From: a virus
Length of the DNA: 35,445 nt
Reading direction: 5' to 3' (one strand)
IMG/VR virus record: IMGVR_UViG_3300042464_000268
Span: 1-35,445 of that record
Made by a program: the position numbers and the translations under genes. Positions 1 through 35,445 of this stretch are shown in pieces. Under the pieces are notes generated by a model. That model made no database searches. It was given only the letters and a program-made list of their open reading frames with translations, and had not been told where the DNA came from. Numbering within the stretch: the first letter of the stretch is position 1; each line of letters starts with the position of its first letter.

Positions 1-103
1 TGGCACCGCCGCCGTCTGCTCCAACCGTTAACGTACCAGTCAGCGTCCCGCCGGACAGCGGCAAATAGCTCGACAGCGCGGAGCTTGTGATGTAGCCGCT
101 CGG
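1..103. repeat. Fibre module copy matching 34822-34924
   Basis: The first 103 bases are identical to 34822-34924, and positions 81-103 also match 35319-35341. They record a junction that skips 417 bp (139 codons) of the fibre gene. Confidence 0.9.
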
Positions 104-718
104 GTTCGTGCTGTTGTACGGCGTGTACCCGAGCGCGGTCGTGACGTTGCCCGAGGTAATTTCGCCGCGGATCGTCGCGGAGCTCTTGTTCTCGACGTTG
201 CCGAGGCCGACGTCGCTCGAGGTGAGCGTGACGGCGCCCGTGCGACCGGCGACGGAGGTGACCGCGTCGGAGAAGGACATGACCCCCGTCGAGCTGTTGT
301 AGCTCAACGAACCCGAGGCGGAGATCGAGGCACGAGCTCGAGCCTGGGTGAAGTACAGATTCGTCGACCCTTCCGCGAGCGAGTCGGTCGAGCCCGGCGA
401 GGCGCTGATCTCGATGTAGGTCGAGCCAGTCCATCGGTAGGTTTTATTCGTGTCGATCGTGACGTAGATCTTGCCCGTCTCGCCCGTACCAGGGAGCGAC
501 GCAAAGTTCGCGACCTCGACAACATCGTCCACATAGGACGGAAGCTGCGCGGACGGAACCTTCCCGGCCGAATCGAGCGAGGCGTAGCCGTTGGCGACGC
601 CCTTGTTCGATGCGACCTCCTTCTGGCCGAGCTCGGTATTGAGCCCGGTGAAGTTTGCGTCGACTTCCTGGTGAGTAAGGGCGGCGCCCTTACCCGCGCG
701 AGTCGTAATCGTTGCCAC
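1..718 (-). CDS. Tail fibre protein, N-terminal part (runs off the left edge; continues at the right edge)
   Basis: This is the virion attachment and early shaft part of the host-recognition fibre. The reading frame is open from a GTG at 718 to base 1. It starts MATITTRAGKGAALTHQEVD, a common opening for phage fibres ('...ALTHxEVDxNF'), with GAGGA 10 nt upstream as ribosome site, 6 nt after the previous stop. A 'GKIYVTIDTNKTYRW' strand follows, then 'GVMSFSDAVTSVAGRTGAVTL' as in many fibres, then the module SGYITSSALSSYLPLSGGTL. Joining position 81 to 35318 keeps the frame and gives a 1,017-residue protein ending at 32903. The left 80 bases instead lead into 'TLTVGADGGGA', the sequence found at 34822, so this edge represents a shorter fibre form. 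No other start is as good. Identity as fibre is certain; the receptor is unknown. Confidence 0.9.
   Translation of the reverse strand, partial: MATITTRAGKGAALTHQEVDANFTGLNTELGQKEVASNKGVANGYASLDSAGKVPSAQLPSYVDDVVEVANFASLPGTGETGKIYVTIDTNKTYRWTGSTYIEISASPGSTDSLAEGSTNLYFTQARARASISASGSLSYNSSTGVMSFSDAVTSVAGRTGAVTLTSSDVGLGNVENKSSATIRGEITSGNVTTALGYTPYNSTNPSGYITSSALSSYLPLSGGTLTGTLTVGADGGGA
81..207. repeat. Contig-end overlap, left copy
   Basis: These 127 bases equal the last 127 of the window (35319-35445). The match stops at position 80 (G here, C at 35318) and at the window end. It closes the circle in frame within the tail fibre gene. Confidence 0.95.
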
Positions 719-724
719 GTTCGA

Positions 725-1156
725 TTATTCCTCGGAGATCGTCAGGGTGCTCGAGGCGAATTCCGGGATGATCAGGTTTGACACGGCGAGCGATGCGGTG
801 AGCTCGCCCTTGTACAGGATCTTCCCTGCGCCGCTCGATCCGGTGCCGACCGCGAAATGGGAGATCGTGTTCGAGCCCCCGGTGCATTGCGGGAAGGTGA
901 TCGCGGCGGCGTTCGTGACGGAGTTGTTCGTCACGGTCCATCCGCCCGAGGTGCGCGCGACGGCGACGCGAGCGTAGCCGGTGTAGCTTGCCTCGCTCGC
1001 CGTCTGCGATCCCGACTCGCCAGGATCGGCGGTGTGAAGCGAGACGTAGAGGTTCGTGTTCGGCGAGCTTGCCGCGTTGTCTGCCAGGTTGGCGATCGCC
1101 GTACCCTGGAAGAACAGTTTCATCAGGTCATTCTCGAATGTGTTGCCCTTTGACAT
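725..1156 (-). CDS. Small virion-associated protein next to the tail fibre
   Basis: A 143-residue protein opening MSKGNTFENDLMKLFFQGTA and continuing 'NLYVSLHTADPGESGSQ'. I recognise this as a widespread family of small phage proteins encoded beside tail fibre or structural genes, sometimes named tail fibre protein; its exact role is not established. The middle is rich in Ser, Thr and Gly with alternating hydrophobic residues, which suggests a beta-sandwich. There is no signal peptide or membrane segment. The gene lies 11 nt after the transferase stop and 6 nt before the fibre GTG, so it is co-translated with the fibre. A structural or fibre-accessory role follows from this context and from family resemblance. 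Confident as a gene, moderate for function. Confidence 0.75.
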   Translation of the reverse strand: MSKGNTFENDLMKLFFQGTAIANLADNAASSPNTNLYVSLHTADPGESGSQTASEASYTGYARVAVARTSGGWTVTNNSVTNAAAITFPQCTGGSNTISHFAVGTGSSGAGKILYKGELTASLAVSNLIIPEFASSTLTISEE

Positions 1157-7671: not shown

Positions 7672-7756
7672 TTCAGGAATCCTTGCCGATTAGCACGAAA
7701 CAGGCACGCGCTCGGTGTCCGAGCCTCGAGCCGTAGAGATTCGACCCTCCCCTCCC
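7672..7756. other. HNH-terminase gap, candidate cos region
   Basis: The 85 bases between the HNH nuclease and the small terminase are one of the few gaps in this tightly packed strand. They hold a perfect short dyad GCTCGG-TGT-CCGAGC at 7710-7724 and a C-rich tract at 7744-7756. In cos phages with this gene order the cohesive-end site often lies next to the small terminase gene. I see no decisive cos motif, so this is only a candidate. Confidence 0.2.
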
Positions 7757-8110
7757 TCACCGCTGAAAATTCCAGGGGTGGGAGGGGTCGAGGGGGGCGC
7801 CCGAGGTGTCGCATCCCCGCAGGGTTCCGGTCTGCTCGAGCTCGGCCTTCGCGCCGTTGTGACACGGCTCGCAGAGCGGTTGCCAGTTGGTCGCCGCCCA
7901 GAAAAGCGTTTCGTCGCCGCGATGAGGGGTGACGTGATCGACGACCGATGCCGCCGTCACCCTGCCGAGCTGCTCGCAGAATACGCAGAGCGGGTGCGCT
8001 GCCAGGTATGCCCGGCGCGCCTCTCGCCACTTGCGACCGTACAAACGATCGCGCTGCTCTTCCCTTGACCACAGTCCAGGTTTCGATAGTTTCGTCATGC
8101 AAATGTACAC
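7757..8110 (-). CDS. HNH endonuclease
   Basis: A 117-residue HNH nuclease with a zinc-finger-like scaffold. 'CVFCEQLGRVTAASVVDHVTP' supplies the first CxxC pair and the D-H of the active site, and 'WAATNWQPLCEPCHNGAK' gives the Asn, the second CxxC pair and the final His. In HK97-like phages such a protein beside the terminase is required for cos cleavage and packaging, so that role is likely here. Translation may start at GTG 8110, two bases after the previous stop, or at ATG 8098 (MTKLSKPGLW). It ends with 'PWNFQR', frequent in this group. Confidence 0.9.
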   Translation of the reverse strand: MYICMTKLSKPGLWSREEQRDRLYGRKWREARRAYLAAHPLCVFCEQLGRVTAASVVDHVTPHRGDETLFWAATNWQPLCEPCHNGAKAELEQTGTLRGCDTSGAPLDPSHPWNFQR

Positions 8111-12371: not shown

Positions 12372-12572
12372 ATGGACACCGCAATAGACGGAATTCTGCT
12401 CGTTTCGGCGGTTTTTACCGCTTTCGGCGTACTTGCCATTCTTGCCGCGGTCTTCGAGTACGTCCTCGATCTGATCGCGCTCCGCCGACGTAATCGCCGC
12501 AGCCGCGAGCGTCTGCCAGATCCCAATCCCCGCACGGTTGTCCGTCGTGCCGGATGGAACGTCCCGCTGTGA
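12372..12572 (+). CDS. Small membrane protein, first gene of the right operon
   Basis: A 66-residue protein with a strong ribosome site (GGGAGG, 4 nt before ATG). Residues about 5-36 ('GILLVSAVFTAFGVLAILAA' and 'FEYVLDLIAL') form one long membrane helix; the rest is Arg-rich ('RRRNRRSRERLP') and should stay in the cytoplasm. No family is recognised. As the first product of a repressor-controlled operon it may act early at the inner membrane, for example in exclusion or stress signalling, but this is only a guess from topology. It overlaps the next gene by 19 nt. Confidence 0.6.
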   Translation: MDTAIDGILLVSAVFTAFGVLAILAAVFEYVLDLIALRRRNRRSRERLPDPNPRTVVRRAGWNVPL

Positions 12573-12793
12573 CCATCGAAAAAGTCGACCCTCGAGATCA
12601 TCGCGCATGGTTCGAGTTTGCCCGAGCTATCGAGCGCGACAGCCTTCCCGATCGCATCGTCCTCGAGCTCGATCGCGACATCACGATCGGCGAGCTGCTC
12701 CAGGCGCTCACGCCTGCCGGGTTCGTAATCTCGAACGCCCGCTCCGGGATTCTTCTCATCCACCGAAAGCCCGCTATGCAGGAGGCCGCATGA
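12554..12793 (+). CDS. Hypothetical protein, 79 residues
   Basis: A small acidic soluble protein: 'VTIEKVDPRDHRAWFEFARA', then 'LPDRIVLELDRDITIGELLQ' and 'AGFVISNARSGILLIHRKPA'. The alternating strand and helix pattern suggests a compact alpha/beta domain. There are no metal-binding or catalytic motifs. ATG 12554 overlaps the upstream gene, and its stop overlaps the exonuclease ATG (ATGATG), so it is translationally coupled to the recombination pair. It may assist the exonuclease/annealase, by position only. Confidence 0.6.
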   Translation: MERPAVTIEKVDPRDHRAWFEFARAIERDSLPDRIVLELDRDITIGELLQALTPAGFVISNARSGILLIHRKPAMQEAA

Positions 12794-13401
12794 TGGAACA
12801 GCGATCCGCTGAATGGTTCGCCGCGCGTCTTGGATGCGCGACCGCGTCGAAGTTTCGCGCCGTGATCTCGAAGCTGAAGTCCGGCAAGCCCGCCCAGGCT
12901 CGCATCGACTACGCGATCGAGCTCGTGACCGAGCGCTTGAGCGGTCAGCCGACTCCGCACTTCACGACGGCCGGGATGCAATGGGGAATCGACCAGGAGC
13001 CCGGCGCGCGCATCGAGTACGAATTCAAGCGAAGCGTCGAGGTGCTCGAGACCGGGTTCATGCGTCACCCGTCGCTGATGACCGGCGCCTCGCCCGACGG
13101 TTTCGTCGGCGACGAAGGCCTGATCGAGATTAAGTGTCCCTCAAGCACTACCCACATCGAGACCTGGTTGTACGGGATGCCCGGCGACCACATCGCCCAG
13201 GTGCAAGGTCAGCTCTGGATCACCGGCCGCGCCTATTGCGACTTCGTGTCGTTCGATCCGCGGATGCCGAAAGAGCTCGCGCTCTACGTTCAGCGCGTCG
13301 AGCGCGACGACATCTTTATCGCGAACCTCGACTCGGAGGTTCGACAGTTTCTCGCCGAGGTCGACGACCTCGAGCGTCAATTAAGGGAGAAAGCAGCATG
13401 A
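12790..13401 (+). CDS. YqaJ-family (lambda Exo-like) 5'-3' exonuclease
   Basis: A 203-residue nuclease that resects double-stranded DNA to give single strands for the annealase encoded next. Family landmarks are 'QRSAEWFAARLGCATASKF' at the start, 'MQWGIDQEPGARIEYE', 'MTGASPDGFVGDEGLIEIKCP' with the catalytic D and E-x-K of the PD-(D/E)xK fold, and 'HIAQVQGQLWITGRAYCDFV' with the Gln helix. I choose ATG 12790, which overlaps the upstream stop and gives the family N-terminus; the frame extends further back only as a shadow. Its stop overlaps the RecT start by ATGA. Confidence 0.95.
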   Translation: MMEQRSAEWFAARLGCATASKFRAVISKLKSGKPAQARIDYAIELVTERLSGQPTPHFTTAGMQWGIDQEPGARIEYEFKRSVEVLETGFMRHPSLMTGASPDGFVGDEGLIEIKCPSSTTHIETWLYGMPGDHIAQVQGQLWITGRAYCDFVSFDPRMPKELALYVQRVERDDIFIANLDSEVRQFLAEVDDLERQLREKAA

Positions 13402-14111
13402 GTACAGCGATCCAAGCCGTCAGCGTGACGGACATCGAGAAGATGGCGACCGCGATTGCGAAGTCCGGCCTCTTTGGAATGCGGACGCCCGACCAGGCGA
13501 TGAGTTTGATGCTGATTGCCCAGGCGGAAGGTCTGCACCCGGCGATCGCCGCGCGCGACTACCACATCATCCAGGGACGGCCCTCGCTGAAGAGCGACGC
13601 CCTGCTCGCTCGTTTTCAAGCGAACTGCGGGAAGATCGAATGGACCGAGTACACCGACCAGGCGGTCGCCGCGAAGGTGTCGCACCCGGCCGGAGGCGTC
13701 GTCGAGATCCGATGGACGTTCCAGATGGCCGAACGCGCCGGGCTCACGAAGAACCCGACCTGGCGTCAGTACCCGCGGCAGATGCTCCGCGCGCGAGTGA
13801 TCTCCGAAGGCGTCCGCGCCGTGTTCCCAGGGGTCGCGGTTGGCGTCTACACCTCCGAAGAGATCCAGGACATGACGATTGCGAGCTCGAGCGCGACGGT
13901 CGTCGCTGCGGAGCCGCAGCTCGCCGATCCCGTCGCCCTGGTTCGGGAGGCGCCGGATCTCGAGGCGCTGAAGACGCGGTTCCGCGATTCGGTCGTGCTC
14001 GCCAGGAAGTCGAAGGATCGCGAACAGGAGGCCGCGCTGAATGCCGCGAAGGATGCCAGGAAGGCGGAGCTCGAGGCGATTGTCGTTGAGCCCGAGGAGG
14101 TTGCAGCATGA
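13398..14111 (+). CDS. recT: RecT-family single-strand annealing protein
   Basis: A 237-residue annealase that coats the strands made by the exonuclease and pairs them with homologous DNA. Landmarks are 'RTPDQAMSLMLIAQAEGLHP', 'ARDYHIIQGRPSLKSDALLA', 'FQMAERAGLTKNPTWRQYPR' and 'LRARVISEGVRAVFPGVAVG'. The last sequence is the RecT motif that includes the conserved Arg residues. The C-terminal 60 or so residues are charged and low in complexity ('KSKDREQEAALNAAKDARKA'). ATG 13398 overlaps the exonuclease stop, and the next gene again overlaps by ATGA. The pair could drive recombination between repeats in the phage, such as those in the fibre gene. Confidence 0.9.
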   Translation: MSTAIQAVSVTDIEKMATAIAKSGLFGMRTPDQAMSLMLIAQAEGLHPAIAARDYHIIQGRPSLKSDALLARFQANCGKIEWTEYTDQAVAAKVSHPAGGVVEIRWTFQMAERAGLTKNPTWRQYPRQMLRARVISEGVRAVFPGVAVGVYTSEEIQDMTIASSSATVVAAEPQLADPVALVREAPDLEALKTRFRDSVVLARKSKDREQEAALNAAKDARKAELEAIVVEPEEVAA

Positions 14112-14939: not shown

Positions 14940-14952
14940 GGTGACGTTATGC
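14934..14952 (+). promoter_or_regulatory. Inverted repeat over the integrase ribosome site and start
   Basis: GCATAA-GGTGACG-TTATGC is a perfect 6-bp dyad with a 7-nt loop. The loop holds the integrase ribosome site (AAGGTG) and the 3' arm contains its ATG. As RNA it could hide the start until a ribosome terminating at the upstream TAA unfolds it. As DNA it could also be a binding or crossover site. Seen directly; role inferred. Confidence 0.45.
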
Positions 14953-16544
14953 GCGCCATCATTTACGCCCGATATTCGACCGAGCACCAGACGGAATCAA
15001 CGATCGTCGATCAGCTTCGGCGGTGCCGCGACTACGCGAAAAATCACGAGCTAAAGGTCGTCGCGGAATACACCGACGAGGGGATCTCCGGCGCTGCGAT
15101 CGGGAACAGGCCCGGTGTCCAGAGGGCGCTCGCCGAGCTCAAGTCAGGTGACCTCCTCCTGGTCGTCGACACGACCCGGCTGTCAAGATCGCAGGATCTT
15201 GCGCCGTTGCTGACCAGGTTGCGTCACCGAGGTATCCGCGTCGTCGGCGTCCTGGACGGGTTCGACTCGGACAGCCGGACGGCTCGGATGCAGGCGGGTC
15301 TCTCTGGAATTATGAGCGAGGAGTTCCGCGCGCAGATTGCATCGCGGACGCATTCTGCGCTCGATATGAGGGCTCGCCTGGGAAAGGCGACCGGCGGGAA
15401 GTGTTACGGATACTCGAAGGCGGGAGAGATCATCGAAATGGAGGCCGCGATTGTGCGCGAGGTGTTTGAGCGCGCAGCTCGAGGCGAGTCGATGAAGGCG
15501 ATCGTCGTCGACTTGAATCGACGCGGAGTGCCGTCGCCCGGCTCGACCTGGGAGCGAAAGACTCGCCGGTCGGACGGGTTGTGGCTTGTGTCCGGCGTTC
15601 ACTCGATGCTTGCGAACGATCGCTATATCGGCCGGGTCGTGTGGAATCGCTCGATTTGGAGGCGAGATCCGGACAGCGGAAAGCGTCAGCGCGTTGAGCG
15701 TCCGGAGTCGGAATGGATCGTCACGGATGGCCCTGCGATCGTCGAGCTCGAGGCCTGGGAGAAGGTGCGCGCCCTGGCACAGCCGAGAAAGTTTCACGGC
15801 GGGACGAGGGGCCGCGGCCCGAAGTACGTCCTCTCCGGGATTCTGGTCTGCGGGGAATGCGGCGGGAAGCTTGTTGCGACCGGCGCGAACGGCAGTCGGT
15901 ACTATTGCGGAACGCGGCACCAGGGAGGCGACGCGGCCTGCTCGAACTCGGTCGGCGCGAGGCGGGACGTAGCGGAGGAGAAGCTGCTCGAGCCGATCTC
16001 GTCACAGCTCCTCTCGAATGAGGCGGTCGAGTTGGCCGTCCAGATGATCCGGCAATGGCGACGAGATGAGCGCACCGAGTCGACGCGCCCGGCGGAGCTC
16101 GAGGAGCTCGATCGCCGGATTGCCCGGCTCGAGGCCCAGGTCGCCCAGGGTGCGCTCGACCGGGAAGACATTGCGCCCTCGGTCGCCGCGCTCATTGAGC
16201 GTCGTCGGTCGCTCCTGGCGAGCTCCTGGCGGAAGGCGGGCGCCAGGTCGAACATCGACCAGGGAGCCGCGGAGGACGCCTATCGGAAGGCGGTCGCCAA
16301 TATGCGGGAGGCTTTACAGGGACCGGCGGGTCGAGCTCGAGCGGCCGTTCACGCGCTTCTGGGGGACGTCATTTGTCGCCCGGAGGGGTCCATTCTTGTT
16401 GCTGAATTGCAACTAAACACCTCGCCGCTGCTGTCTGCGGCGGGTGTTTCACTGAATGGTAGCGGGGGCCCGCTCCCGATTTATGAAATAGTACCACTTG
16501 TGAAAGGCGGACCGGCGCTATTTGCGAATAGGCTCGCTGCCTAG
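14949..16544 (+). CDS. int: Large serine integrase
   Basis: A 531-residue large serine recombinase that should integrate and excise the phage circle between short att sites. The catalytic resolvase domain (1-150) has 'IYARYSTEHQ' with Ser10 as nucleophile and 'DTTRLSRSQD'. The recombinase domain (about 155-270) follows. The zinc-ribbon domain has Cys301/Cys304 ('LVCGECGGK') and Cys320/Cys331 ('YYCGTRH...CSN'). A coiled coil ('ELDRRIARLEAQVAQGALDR') lies near residues 383-425. Large serine integrases are less common than tyrosine ones in phages of Gram-negatives. The last 30 residues are atypical. The 3' end overlaps the convergent Rz1 gene by 27 nt. An accessory factor is expected for excision. 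Confidence 0.95.
   Translation: MRAIIYARYSTEHQTESTIVDQLRRCRDYAKNHELKVVAEYTDEGISGAAIGNRPGVQRALAELKSGDLLLVVDTTRLSRSQDLAPLLTRLRHRGIRVVGVLDGFDSDSRTARMQAGLSGIMSEEFRAQIASRTHSALDMRARLGKATGGKCYGYSKAGEIIEMEAAIVREVFERAARGESMKAIVVDLNRRGVPSPGSTWERKTRRSDGLWLVSGVHSMLANDRYIGRVVWNRSIWRRDPDSGKRQRVERPESEWIVTDGPAIVELEAWEKVRALAQPRKFHGGTRGRGPKYVLSGILVCGECGGKLVATGANGSRYYCGTRHQGGDAACSNSVGARRDVAEEKLLEPISSQLLSNEAVELAVQMIRQWRRDERTESTRPAELEELDRRIARLEAQVAQGALDREDIAPSVAALIERRRSLLASSWRKAGARSNIDQGAAEDAYRKAVANMREALQGPAGRARAAVHALLGDVICRPEGSILVAELQLNTSPLLSAAGVSLNGSGGPLPIYEIVPLVKGGPALFANRLAA
16416..16448. terminator. Strong hairpin in the integrase 3' end, candidate two-way terminator
   Basis: AACACC-T-CGCCGC pairs with GCGGCGGGTGTT over 12 bp with one bulged T and an 8-nt loop. 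It lies where the plus-strand operon meets the minus-strand lysis genes. T-runs after it are short on both strands (TTT), so termination is only possible. A second dyad, AGCGGG-GG-CCCGCT, follows at 16461-16474. Confidence 0.3.
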
Positions 16545-29346: not shown

Positions 29347-29921
29347 CAGAACACCTTGAAGGGCGACAGGAGCGCGGTGAATCCGAGCGGAAACTCGCTG
29401 ACGACCGTTCCGGTAAGCGTTGCCTCGCGGTTTTCGTAGAGGTGCGCGGTCATCAGTTTGATCGCCGCCTTGATGGCGGGCGGGACATCGCTCGGCGTAC
29501 CGTAGCCCGCGACGTAGCGGATACGGACGTCGTTGATGTGCCCGCGCGAGCTCGGCCAGGTCTGGTTATAGGCCTGAAAGATCATGCCAGGCTGCGCGAA
29601 CGGTCCCGAGTCGTTGACTACCTGGTAGCTGTTTGCCGAGAGCGTCTGCGTGTTGCCTGCGATGTCGATGTAGGTGATCGAGGTGACGCTTGCGAGCGGC
29701 CCCTTCGGGAGCTCGAAGTAGAGCGGGAACTGATCGACCCGCAGCTCCCAGGTCGTGCTGACGAACGAGCGCCCGGTGTAGGCCTCGGCGTACTCGCGCG
29801 AGGCCTTCGTGAGCGCGAAAAGCATCTCGTCGTCCTGGTTGCCGTCAATGCGGCAATGCGAGCGCGCCTCTTCGACCGTTACCGGCTCGCCCGTCGGAGC
29901 CGTGATCAGGGTGTGGTTCAT
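29346..29921 (-). CDS. Head-tail connector, gp6/phiE125 gp8-like
   Basis: A 191-residue adaptor: 'EPVTVEEARSHCRIDGNQDD', 'MLFALTKASREYAEAYTGRS', 'FVSTTWELRVDQFPLYFELP', 'VRIRYVAGYGTPSDVPPAIK', 'AAIKLMTAHLYENREA'. These are the landmarks of the HK97 gp6/phiE125 gp8 connector family that binds beneath the portal. Length is near the family norm. In most relatives it comes right after the capsid gene; here about 8-9 kb of fibre and transferase genes intervene. Confidence 0.92.
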   Translation of the reverse strand: MNHTLITAPTGEPVTVEEARSHCRIDGNQDDEMLFALTKASREYAEAYTGRSFVSTTWELRVDQFPLYFELPKGPLASVTSITYIDIAGNTQTLSANSYQVVNDSGPFAQPGMIFQAYNQTWPSSRGHINDVRIRYVAGYGTPSDVPPAIKAAIKLMTAHLYENREATLTGTVVSEFPLGFTALLSPFKVF

Positions 29922-30193
29922 AGCTGTCGCACCTGTACCAGGACCGAGCGGTCCTCGATGCGTCCGCCCGGCGTCGTGACGCGATTCGTGATGAGGTAGT
30001 CAGCTCCGGCCGCTCCGCCGGAGAGGAAGGCGCGCGTCACGTTCGACGTCACGCCTTCGGAGACAATCGTCAGAGCGGCGGGAACTTCCCAGGCGGACGT
30101 CGTGACCGTGTCCCCGTTTAGCCAGGGATTCCAGTCGACCTCGAAGTCGATCGTCGAGTTTGGATCTTTTGTGAATGCCGCGATGATCGTCAT
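29918..30193 (-). CDS. Small beta-rich virion-associated protein
   Basis: A 91-residue protein: 'AFTKDPNSTIDFEVDWNPWL', 'GDTVTTSAWEVPAALTIVSE', 'TRAFLSGGAAGADYLITNRV', 'TTPGGRIEDRSVLVQVRQL'. This 'KDPxxxxDFxVDWxxWL' family is frequently found between capsid and connector genes in HK97-type phages and is probably a small Ig-like virion protein. It overlaps the repeat protein and the connector gene by 4 nt each. Precise role unknown. Confidence 0.75.
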   Translation of the reverse strand: MTIIAAFTKDPNSTIDFEVDWNPWLNGDTVTTSAWEVPAALTIVSEGVTSNVTRAFLSGGAAGADYLITNRVTTPGGRIEDRSVLVQVRQL

Positions 30194-31731
30194 GCAGCGA
30201 TTCTCCTGTTATTGCGTGAGACCTTGATCGTGCGGCCTTCCGCTTCGACCTCGATCGAACTGTCAGCGCCGACCTTGAGCGTCGAGCGCTGCGGAATAAT
30301 TTCGCGGCGATCCTGGAACGGAACCTTCAGCTCTCGAGAGTCCGGCGTGAAGGTGCGATTCCGTATCCTTCCGGATACAGTTGCGTCGCCTTCGGCGCTG
30401 CCGTCGACGGCGCCGTAGCCGACCGCCTGGCCCTCGAGCTCGGCGGTGCCGTAGACCAGGCCCAGGATCGGACCGCGACCGTAGAGCGTGACGATCGAGC
30501 TCGCCTCGCCCGCCGCGTCGCCGACCTGGCGACCGTAGGCCAGGATCGAGGCGGTTGCGCTCGAGGTGCCGGTCTCGTTGCCGTCAACAATTCCGCGACC
30601 GTAGGCCGGGACATCCTCGACGGTGCTCTCGCCCGAGATCGCGCCCTGGATAACCGAGCGACCGTCGATCGCGCCTGCGACCGTGGCGTCGCCTGCGATC
30701 GAGCCGGAGCCCATCGCGAAGGCGCGCGCCTCGGCGCTGACCGTCGCCTCTCCTGCGATCGAGCCGTCCGTCCGGCCGAATGCCAGGATGACCGCGCTCG
30801 AGCTCGAGGAGCCGATCGCCGCGCCAGGTGCGGAGATCTTCCGCTGCCCTTCGCCCGTGACCGTCGCCAGGCCTTCGGCGGAGCCGGAGCCCTGGGCGGT
30901 TGCCAGGATGCCGCCGGACACCGAGCTCGAGGAGCTCGAGGTCGCGCTGACCTGGGCGGTCGCATAGATGCCCGCGCTCGCCTCCGCAGAGCCCGCAGAG
31001 GCGGCGTCCGGCCGACCATAGGCGAGGACATCCCCCGCGATCGTGCTCGCCCCCTGCGCCTCCCCGTTCGCCGGGAAGATGCCCTGGATCGCGCCGTCGA
31101 CCGTTGAGCTGCCGGTCGTTTCGCCGCGGCTCGAGAACCTGGCGGTCCCGGAGCCGGTGACCGTCGCCGAGCCCTCGGCCTGGCCGGTTGCCTGGCCGGT
31201 TGCGAGCGCATCGCCCGAGACCGACGAGCTCCCGGAGCTCGAGGCGTCGAGTCCGGTGCGCGCCTGGACATCGGCCGCGGCCGTAGCCGTCCCCGCAGCA
31301 GCGCCCTCGCCTTCGATACGCCCGGAGCCGTCGGCGGTTGCCGTCGAGCTCGAGCTCGAGGAGGCGGAGATCGGCCCCGACGCAATGACCGCGCCCGCGA
31401 CCGTTGCAGATCCCGAGGAGATGCCGCTCGCCGCGCCCGCCGCAATGATCGAGCCAGAGACCGCCCCGGTCCCGGCTGCGGAGCCGGTCGCCGAGGCGAT
31501 GGCTCGAGAGGTTGCCGACGTCGTCGACGAACCCGCGGAGCTTGCAATCGGACGGCCGATCGCGTCGATGTCACTTGTGACCGTTGCCGAGCCAACACTC
31601 GCGCCAGGCGAGGAGATCTTCGGAACGAGCGCGCCGGTGACGGTCGCTGACCCTGCGGCGGTGCCGTACAGCGTATCGCCGACGGCATAGCCGAAAAGCC
31701 AGTAGTCGCTCTGGACGTATAGGCCGCTCAT
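30190..31731 (-). CDS. Repeat-built virion surface protein, about 22 twenty-residue repeats
   Basis: A 513-residue protein in three parts. Residues 1-26 are aromatic ('SGLYVQSDYWLFGYAVGD') and may bind the virion. Residues 27 to about 465 are tandem repeats of almost exactly 20 residues, consensus G-S-A-T-V-x-G-x-(I/V)-x-A-x-G-R-x-x-x-S-x-A, one having a single inserted residue. The C-terminus (466-513) has 'ELKVPFQDRREIIPQRSTLK' and 'VEAEGRTIKVSRNN', similar to short phage proteins rich in xxExR motifs. The regular period suggests a beta-solenoid. Ser, Thr, Ala and Gly dominate; Cys is absent. It overlaps the next gene by ATGA and lies within the fibre/transferase block. A head or neck fibre is my inference. 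Confidence 0.7.
   Translation of the reverse strand: MSGLYVQSDYWLFGYAVGDTLYGTAAGSATVTGALVPKISSPGASVGSATVTSDIDAIGRPIASSAGSSTTSATSRAIASATGSAAGTGAVSGSIIAAGAASGISSGSATVAGAVIASGPISASSSSSSTATADGSGRIEGEGAAAGTATAAADVQARTGLDASSSGSSSVSGDALATGQATGQAEGSATVTGSGTARFSSRGETTGSSTVDGAIQGIFPANGEAQGASTIAGDVLAYGRPDAASAGSAEASAGIYATAQVSATSSSSSSVSGGILATAQGSGSAEGLATVTGEGQRKISAPGAAIGSSSSSAVILAFGRTDGSIAGEATVSAEARAFAMGSGSIAGDATVAGAIDGRSVIQGAISGESTVEDVPAYGRGIVDGNETGTSSATASILAYGRQVGDAAGEASSIVTLYGRGPILGLVYGTAELEGQAVGYGAVDGSAEGDATVSGRIRNRTFTPDSRELKVPFQDRREIIPQRSTLKVGADSSIEVEAEGRTIKVSRNNRRIAA
30337..31653 (-). repeat. About 22 tandem 60-bp units encoding 20-residue repeats
   Basis: At protein level each unit begins with G/S-x-(A/S)-(T/S) and most have A-x-G-R or similar near the middle. 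DNA copies are diverged, although short 8-12 bp words such as gcctgcgatcgagcc recur. Confidence 0.85.
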
Positions 31732-32902: not shown

Positions 32903-35445
32903 CTAGTGAACCCGAGCGCGCAGCTCGGCGACTTCTTGTTTCAATGCGACAAGCTCCTTCGCGAGCGCGACCGCCGACACCATCGCGGCGTTACCGTAAG
33001 CGACCGAGAGGTCGCCGTTGTCGGCCTCGATTACCGCCTCGGGTAGGACATCGCGGAGCGACTGCGCCGAGACGCCCGCCTGGGTGATCTCGACGTCGGT
33101 GCGGTCGTATATCCCGCTCTTCACGTTCGCAAGATTGACGAGGAAGCCATCGTCTAGCTTTCGCCAGTTGGCCTTTACTCGTTCGTCCGAGTAGGCGGTG
33201 ACGTTGCCTGCGGCGATCACGTTGCCTGCGCCGTTTACTCGGAAAGCGACCGAGTTGCCGTTCGTGTTAAGAACGCGGAAGCCCCGCGTATCGTCGCCTG
33301 TTCCGTAGAACTGAACCTGCATCCAATACTGCGAGCCGCCGTCGTAAGAACAGCCATATGCCCAGTTAGAGTCCGAGGCAAATCGTATGAAAGACGGCGT
33401 GTTGTATGCGGGCCCGCTGATGTTGCCGGTCATATTCCCGCCAGAAAGCGGAAGAGCGTAGCTCCCAAAGTTTGCGCTTGACAGCATAGTGAGCCAGTTG
33501 CCCCAGCTGCCGGCATATCCCTGCCTGAAATACAGGGTACCGTTGCCTGATGTGCCGTAACTCCCCTGTGCTTGCCACATGGTGTCGATACCGCCGACAT
33601 GGAGAACAGGAGCGTAAGCGATCGCAGCACCGGCTCCACTTTCAGTCCGGTAAACAGCAGTGTTGGCTCTATCTACGTTTACCGAGCCTGACCCGAGACC
33701 AAGCAGGTTTATTGCTGACGCCGAGCCAGAACTACCAGTGACACTGATTGACCAAGTACCGCTCGCGCCGCTTCCGGTGAGCGAGGGCGCATAGCTCGTG
33801 TAGTTCTGATTAGTCAGCACTCTGTTCCACGTTTGCCAGCTTGCACCGTTCCAACCACCACGGAACGCGAGATCGTTTCCGGCGTGGCTTACATAGAACT
33901 GCGCTTGACCGGGGCTAGCGTTGAAACTCAACGTTGTGCCGTATGGATATGCGTAAGCGGTCGGCTTGTTTGGGCTGCTTTCTATATAGCCGGAAACTAT
34001 GTTCGAGCTGAAGTTGCCGTAGGTGTTGAAGTCAAAGTTATCAACGTTGCCACGGTTTCTTACGGTGTAGGCACTCATTGACTCTGCGACTGCTGCCGGA
34101 GTTGTCCTGACGAGCTGGTTTGTCGTCGGAAACATCGACACCAATACCGTCGGCGTCGTTGAGGATAAGCCAGAACTTAAAACAATCTCGCGCGCCGCGA
34201 TGTCGCCGTTTCCATCTCTGTAGGCAATAGTGTTCGCAGTCGCCGCCGTCGTCGGATTGTTGTATCCGCTGATAGAACCCGAGGTTCCGGTGACGTTAAT
34301 TCCCCACGTCCCACTAGCGCCGCTGCCGGTAAGTGAGGGCGCGTAGCTAGTGTAGTTTTCCGTTGAAAGGAAAACGTAGGGCCCACGGAACGTGCCGCCT
34401 TCGAGCCGCGAATACTGCGGCGGGCTCCAGAACGGCATGATGAGCGTCTGGTTGTAATAGGTCGCGCCGTCGCCATGGTTATTTATTAAATAACTTGCCC
34501 ACCCCGATTGCCCGGCGAAGGTTCCAGACTCTTGTCGCCATGTAAATGTTCCGTTGCCATACCCGCTGCTGTTTACGGTTGTTGTCGCTCCAGCAGTGCC
34601 GGTGACGTTAATACTCCACGTTCCGCTCGCGCCGCTGCCGGTGAGCGAGGGGGAGTAGGAGGTGTAGTTACCGGCGTGGAGAGCAAGATTGCTTCCAATA
34701 AAAAACGATCCAGAAGTAACCTTCGCGCTGCCGCTGGAGTCTTGAAGGTTCCATACGTTTGATCCGCCGCGCCAAACGGTAAGCACATCCTGCCAGCCGT
34801 TTACAGCTCGCTGCACAAAATTGGCACCGCCGCCGTCTGCTCCAACCGTTAACGTACCAGTCAGCGTCCCGCCGGACAGCGGCAAATAGCTCGACAGCGC
34901 GGAGCTTGTGATGTAGCCGCTCGGATTTGTCGCGTTGTAAGGCGTATAGCCGAGAGCGCCTGTCACCTGGCCGCTTGTGATGCTGCTAACGGTCGCAGCA
35001 TTTCCGGTGATGTTGATCCCCCAGGTACCAGACGCGCCCGTGCCAGTCAGCGTCGGCGAGTACGAAGTGTAGTTACCGCCATGAATTACAGCATCGCCGT
35101 TCCAATAGAGGATGCCGTTCGTACGCATCTCAAGGAACTTGCCGACGTTTCCGCTGATGTGGAACGCGATGCCGGTGGCGGTATTGTCGTAAGACTCCGT
35201 CCACAACGCTGCCGTCGTATAGTTTCCAGCGGTTTGGCTTTTGCGGAATTGCCCGGTTGGCGAAACCAACACACCAGTCAGCGTCCCGCCGCTCAACGGC
35301 AGATAGCTCGACAGCGCCGAGCTTGTGATGTAGCCGCTCGGGTTCGTGCTGTTGTACGGCGTGTACCCGAGCGCGGTCGTGACGTTGCCCGAGGTAATTT
35401 CGCCGCGGATCGTCGCGGAGCTCTTGTTCTCGACGTTGCCGAGGC
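32903..35445 (-). CDS. Tail fibre protein, main part with S74 chaperone (continues from left edge)
   Basis: The frame is open from the right edge to 32903. It continues the 718-start gene: the edge reads 'GLGNVENKSSATIRGE', identical to the left part. Four copies of 'NYTSY(S/A)PxLTGxGASGTW' spaced by variable domains, and repeated 'SGYITSSALSSYLPLSGGTL', form the shaft. A receptor-binding area follows. The last 110 residues are an intramolecular chaperone of the endosialidase type (peptidase S74): 'VTAYSDERVKANWRKL', with the Ser-Asp pair of the cleavage site, then 'AGVSAQSLRDVLPEAV' and 'AMVSAVALAKELVALKQEVA'. The chaperone trims itself after trimerisation. Base composition in 33.3-34.8 kb is visibly more A+T-rich than neighbours, suggesting exchange. 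Confidence 0.92.
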   Translation of the reverse strand, partial: LGNVENKSSATIRGEITSGNVTTALGYTPYNSTNPSGYITSSALSSYLPLSGGTLTGVLVSPTGQFRKSQTAGNYTTAALWTESYDNTATGIAFHISGNVGKFLEMRTNGILYWNGDAVIHGGNYTSYSPTLTGTGASGTWGINITGNAATVSSITSGQVTGALGYTPYNATNPSGYITSSALSSYLPLSGGTLTGTLTVGADGGGANFVQRAVNGWQDVLTVWRGGSNVWNLQDSSGSAKVTSGSFFIGSNLALHAGNYTSYSPSLTGSGASGTWSINVTGTAGATTTVNSSGYGNGTFTWRQESGTFAGQSGWASYLINNHGDGATYYNQTLIMPFWSPPQYSRLEGGTFRGPYVFLSTENYTSYAPSLTGSGASGTWGINVTGTSGSISGYNNPTTAATANTIAYRDGNGDIAAREIVLSSGLSSTTPTVLVSMFPTTNQLVRTTPAAVAESMSAYTVRNRGNVDNFDFNTYGNFSSNIVSGYIESSPNKPTAYAYPYGTTLSFNASPGQAQFYVSHAGNDLAFRGGWNGASWQTWNRVLTNQNYTSYAPSLTGSGASGTWSISVTGSSGSASAINLLGLGSGSVNVDRANTAVYRTESGAGAAIAYAPVLHVGGIDTMWQAQGSYGTSGNGTLYFRQGYAGSWGNWLTMLSSANFGSYALPLSGGNMTGNISGPAYNTPSFIRFASDSNWAYGCSYDGGSQYWMQVQFYGTGDDTRGFRVLNTNGNSVAFRVNGAGNVIAAGNVTAYSDERVKANWRKLDDGFLVNLANVKSGIYDRTDVEITQAGVSAQSLRDVLPEAVIEADNGDLSVAYGNAAMVSAVALAKELVALKQEVAELRARVH
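34822..34924. repeat. Internal fibre module copy
   Basis: The copy inside the fibre gene, identical to positions 1-103, encoding 'SALSSYLPLSGGTLTGTLTV'. The related module at about 35265-35341 is similar but not identical. Confidence 0.9.
35319..35445. repeat. Contig-end overlap, right copy
   Basis: Identical to 81-207; see that entry. A fixed-length overlap at a branch is typical of assembly from short words, so this is probably a circle and not a physical terminal repeat. Confidence 0.95.

Follow-up and report, generated by a model that had tools for sequence, protein, structure and literature searches.

The window, the whole 35,445-nt stretch of viral DNA held in IMG/VR record IMGVR_UViG_3300042464_000268, contains two in-frame paths through a likely tail fibre gene. 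The long path closes the record into a circle; the short path, which runs through an 80-base stub at the contig start, lacks 417 bp of the gene. Independently confirmed in two other metagenomes, the long form is the genuine and predominant form of the phage. On balance, we attribute the short adjacency to a deletion variant of this phage that is present as a minority, a reading that we hold with somewhat more confidence than doubt.

Structure of the contig ends

Exact matching revealed that bases 81–207 equal 35319–35445 (127 nt) and that bases 1–103 equal 34822–34924 (103 nt), in both cases base for base and with no extension on either side. Matches of this length exclude chance. Both identities, with exactly these limits, had been claimed in the first-pass annotation, as had the meeting of two paths in the 23 bases 81–103, which was borne out by exact matching. 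This meeting tract (minus strand; coding strand CCGAGCGGCTACATCACAAGCTC, encoding PSGYITSS) is common to both paths and is found again at 34902–34924 and 35319–35341. The 80-base stub (positions 1–80), identical to 34822–34901, belongs to the short-fibre path only.

In the recipe described in the JGI data paper, reads are corrected with bbcms and then assembled with metaSPAdes at k 33, 55, 77, 99 and 127 (PMC11584781). The CheckV authors reported that circular metagenome contigs carry terminal repeats of k-mer length that are caused by assembly (PMC8116208). The overlap has the same length, 127 bases, as the largest k in the JGI recipe; the record therefore most probably represents a circle of 35,238 bp (81–35318) preceded by the 80-base stub. 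We infer from this that the window was assembled with the JGI recipe; assembler, k and read length are thus deduced rather than taken from the record. Among 25 related contigs whose ends were compared, G010 displayed a clean 127-nt terminal repeat, and no second stub with an offset end overlap was present. The overlap of the window resembles the repeats described for CheckV in that it is exact, 127 nt long and of the kind that arises when a circle is broken in a k=127 graph. Unlike them, it does not start at base 1 of the contig but at base 81, behind the stub. A repeat search at the very contig ends would therefore miss it, so that 80 bases suffice to hide a complete circular genome from such a search. 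Since a stub can have this effect, offset overlaps merit checking when viral genomes are closed.

Ten related contigs (L028, L029, L031, L033, L035, L036, L038, L039, L040 and L047) start at one and the same base, corresponding to window position 7704. This position lies 272 nt upstream of the start of the terminase large subunit gene and shortly before the small subunit ORF, and it is adjoined by an HNH endonuclease gene (7757–8110). It resembles a physically fixed, cos-type end of the genome, which the circular window would traverse.

Long and short forms of the fibre gene

On the minus strand, the fibre gene runs from its start at position 718 through the join 81/35318 to its end at 32903. 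Its N-terminal part (81–718, minus strand) encodes a conserved N-terminus of about 206 residues followed by a linker, and its C-terminal part (32903–35318, minus strand) continues the frame across the join. Read through the join, the long form is an open frame of 1017 amino acids; read through the stub, the short form is an open frame of 878 amino acids. The short path is exactly 417 nt or 139 codons shorter and introduces no stop, which agrees with the loss of 139 codons in frame that had been proposed at first pass.

The block present in the long and absent from the short form (34902–35318, minus strand) consists of one linker copy and a module of 117 residues. It is flanked by two copies of the linker SGYITSSALSSYLPLSGGTLTG, as expected from the proposed loss of a module between two repeat copies. 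Copy 1 (35273–35338, minus strand) covers residues 207–228 of the long form and copy 2 (34856–34921, minus strand) residues 346–367, so that the copies, starting at residues 207 and 346, enclose a block of 139 residues. At the DNA level the linkers are part of a direct repeat of 122 nt that is 82% identical, with its copies 417 nt apart. Three identical runs of at least 8 nt occur within it, of 19, 15 and 23 nt; it is the 23-nt run that contains the join. A further family of fibre repeats, 88 nt long, has members at 33727, 34279, 34591 and 34996. As the linkers are in codon register, any exchange between them automatically keeps the frame and removes a multiple of three nucleotides. We considered the kept frame as a sign of selection and rejected this idea: frame retention is automatic and thus provides no independent evidence for selection or for a living variant.

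The long-form join was crossed in a single alignment by two records from other metagenomes, 3300044622_000267 (L002/L006) and 3300034104_001025 (L007). Neither L002 nor L007 differed from the window at the join; in both the N- and C-terminal parts of the gene are contiguous, and both carry the two linkers. Over 13.9 kb, L002 displayed 57 differences, and over 11.3 kb, L007 displayed 8; none of these lies in the fibre gene. Single differences at 30937 and 23604 are outside the gene, and all others map to 839–2058, upstream of it.

The distribution of these differences is uneven. All eight differences of L007 fall at 839–1000, in a Gp80-like gene, and 55 of the 57 differences of L002 at 1195–2058, in a glycosyltransferase-like gene, while the fibre is identical in each case. 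One reading of these clusters would be local replacement beside the fibre gene.

Identity of the fibre and neighbouring genes

The gene product is likely to be a tail fibre, putatively attached to the tail. A Peptidase_S74 or endosialidase-type intramolecular chaperone domain (33032–33190, minus strand; PF13884, E 1.7e-6, above the cut-off) sits at the C-terminus, and the N-terminus matches PHROGs annotated as minor tail protein but also one for head decoration. The fibre gene is adjoined by a gene for a Gp80-like protein (Podophage GP4 fiber I protein; 725–1156, minus strand; PF23140, E 1.2e-21; PDB 8jou chain a, E 9.8e-8), and a Gp77-like fiber-tail adaptor is encoded at 29918–30193 (minus strand; PF23148, E 1.4e-25; PDB 8jou chain D, E 2.2e-6). 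A sequence search of the PDB with the fibre returned nothing useful, and a structure model of its N-terminus was discarded at a mean pLDDT of 32.

The genes resembling gp80 and gp77 of the GP4 podophage occur here in a phage that has a tape measure gene and a tail tube gene. Two overlapping genes at 1168–2480, beside the major capsid protein gene, resemble, by PHROG match, a glycosyltransferase and an alpha-2,3-sialyltransferase family. A repetitive ORF of 513 residues rich in Ser, Ala and Gly (30190–31731) had no match to a Pfam or PHROGs family.

Module borders in related fibres

Comparison with ten related fibres displayed a kept N-terminus, with 88–97% identity over the aligned stretch, and a different remainder. 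The complete genes among the related fibres are open frames of 995 to 1380 residues. The conserved N-terminus of about 206 residues ends at the linker, where different modules follow in the ten relatives; DNA identity is about 80–100% up to the linker and drops to background level within or just before it. L033 is identical in protein sequence to the window fibre through the linker and then continues with an unrelated module, and L010 and L041 behave likewise, with small linker changes before another module. Four fibres (L029, L030, L036 and L039) diverge from the window fibre at PSGYI(T), and three (L031, L008 and L086) a few codons ahead of it. In L031 and L039 the linker and one common following module recur deeper in the fibre. 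Module exchange at the linker is therefore normal in this lineage. The position of the short join at the lineage's own module border makes a deletion plausible and is no proof that the stub represents one.

The fibre DNA matched phage records only once, over 79 bases at 77%, and alignment of the fibre N-terminus against bacterial genomes yielded no relative. Relatives of the terminase share at most 61% identity, one of them on a Nitrosospira multiformis contig, and are too distant to name a host. Six related contigs (L029, L034, L035, L037, L041 and L043) break off within the fibre gene, possibly because of variation or repeats in that region.

Support for the short junction

A (k+1)-mer was regarded as junction-specific if bases 80 and 104 both lay within it. 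For k=127, this definition gives 104 junction-specific 128-mers with starts from −23 to 80, of which the stub holds 80. The first-pass annotation had named an assembly error at a repeat as the alternative to a second phage form. Such a collapse is disfavoured: given the JGI recipe, the shared tract of 23 nt is shorter than the smallest k of 33, and repeat merging in the graph cannot create the join. With repeat merging ruled out under this recipe, the short junction must have been carried by reads. Tiling of the 80 stub-specific starts takes at least four reads if these are 150 nt long, and the two reads of one fragment are insufficient; smaller-k contigs, which SPAdes also takes as input, lower the needed number somewhat. 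In simulations assuming reads of 150–151 nt, no merging and no input from smaller-k contigs, a stub of at least 60 positions with an incomplete junction was likeliest where the short form had about 10–20x coverage and seldom arose above 40x.

That the junction is incomplete on one side suggests low abundance, and the short form is probably a minor component. Equal abundance of the two forms was considered and rejected on the same ground. The earlier proposal that the sample held both a long- and a short-fibre phage therefore holds in so far as two in-frame paths exist. Their equal standing was not borne out: the long form is found in two other metagenomes, and the short form was seen as a partial stub and in no other IMG/VR contig. 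A 48-mer across the short junction had no exact match in an IMG/VR search from which the window's own or near records were possibly omitted. Whether the stub is a tip or a bypass edge at the start of a path, the short join would be a minor adjacency borne by reads.

Origin of the short junction

The events leading to the deletion variant that we favour may be pictured as follows. Assembly in a de Bruijn graph with k=127 would have circularised the genome of a temperate phage and left the usual k-mer overlap as its last 127 bases; the first 80 bases would stem, as a stub or bypass edge, from another adjacency supported by reads. In the DNA behind this adjacency, the fibre gene would have lost 417 bp between two copies of the imperfect linker repeat after strands had paired there, at the 23-nt identical tract, during replication or annealing of the RecE/RecT type. 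One module would thereby be lost and the frame kept, the linkers being in register. Annealing at the linkers and replication slippage would yield the same observed product, which does not separate them. That one of the two gave rise to the variant, that the variant is rare and that the reads came from real phage DNA are the parts of this account that we infer.

Genes that could serve such annealing are present, in agreement with the phage RecT system claimed at first pass. PHROG matches identified a RecE-like exonuclease (12538–13401, plus strand; PHROG 149, E 3.1e-44; PHROG 434, E 3e-15; homology from about residue 78) and a RecT-like single-strand annealing protein (13134–14111, plus strand; PHROG 561, E 4.3e-25; homology from about residue 98), together spanning about 12.5–14.1 kb. 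A large serine integrase is encoded at 14949–16544. The RecT-like protein may plausibly be involved in the module loss.

Two facts count against a deletion variant: the short junction was seen in no other IMG/VR contig, in a search possibly lacking the window's own sample, and 24 of its 104 junction 128-mers are missing. Moreover, SPAdes usually clips short tips of this sort, and a 122-nt repeat falls well short of the 800-bp substrates on which RecET was assayed. A chimera formed before fragmentation would also give an identical picture. Such a library chimera, arising between the linkers by template switching in amplification or by whole-genome amplification prior to fragmentation and having no phage carrier, is the most serious competitor, although we consider it rather unlikely. 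Template switching, too, would favour the site of the join, which is the longest stretch of identity within the repeat; the short junction is confined to one record, and only the long form is present in the other two records of this phage. Against this, tiling of the stub takes four or more distinct reads if reads are 150 nt long and unmerged, and duplicates of one chimeric fragment supply at most two distinct read starts. The coincidence of the join with a module boundary of the lineage speaks for a deletion, though it is equally expected of a repeat-borne chimera.

It appears improbable that the assembler created the junction in the absence of reads, whether by simplifying the graph, closing a gap or extending a path at the repeat. 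The contig does start at the join, a place where the handling of paths and tips comes into play, and the stub ends 24 bases short of rejoining the long path. But the linker copies, sharing at most 23 identical nt, would never be merged in a graph whose smallest k, by the JGI recipe, is 33, and the stub matches both sides with zero mismatches. That the stub derives from another phage in the sample, closely related and with a fibre naturally devoid of the module, is very improbable: relatives L033, L010 and L041 do have one linker directly followed by another module, but their post-linker modules differ from the second module of the window phage, and the stub and the sequence after it are identical to the window phage on both sides of the join.

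A broader version of the deletion reading would make the linker at residues 198–228 a standing hotspot, at which modules are lost or swapped in frame frequently enough to be caught within one sample. We regard this as doubtful; if it were true, the phage would keep a mixed population of fibre lengths. At present, the short fibre is one single, ordinary-looking event.

Comparison with known systems

In phage lambda, the RecET system of the Rac prophage recombined 800-bp repeats of 78% identity at about the rate seen for Red, and was far better than RecA on diverged repeats (PMC3945230). The window shares with this relaxed, RecET/Rad52-like recombination the RecE/RecT-like genes and a putative exchange between diverged repeats. 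In contrast to the 800-bp inverted repeats, which were tested experimentally (PMC3945230), the repeat of the window is direct and much shorter (122 nt), and its mechanism is deduced.

Gain and loss of phage fibre domains in association with repeats is already published. In the Xanthomonas oryzae phages OP1, Xp10 and Xop411, fibre domains were gained and lost, short direct repeats at the domain borders were proposed as the cause, and the changes were linked to host range (PMC2248197). As would be the case in the window, the copy number of fibre domains changes in frame between close phages, with direct repeats at the borders. The changes in the Xanthomonas phages were seen among isolates and tied to host range, whereas the window would offer a single loss on a metagenome contig, known from sequence alone. 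Host-range duplications in the tail fibre adhesin of T4 (Tetart et al. 1996, as cited in PMC2248197) are, as far as that citation describes them, likewise intragenic and repeat-associated changes in a fibre gene. By the same account, they differ in being small domain duplications selected in the laboratory, whereas the window would have lost a module of 139 residues unselected. By analogy, the window case would work like OP1/Xp10/Xop411 and T4, its membership hinging on the short form being real. If it is, module loss would be in progress at the very linker that marks the module borders between relatives, and one site would unite a population process with a long-term mosaic pattern.
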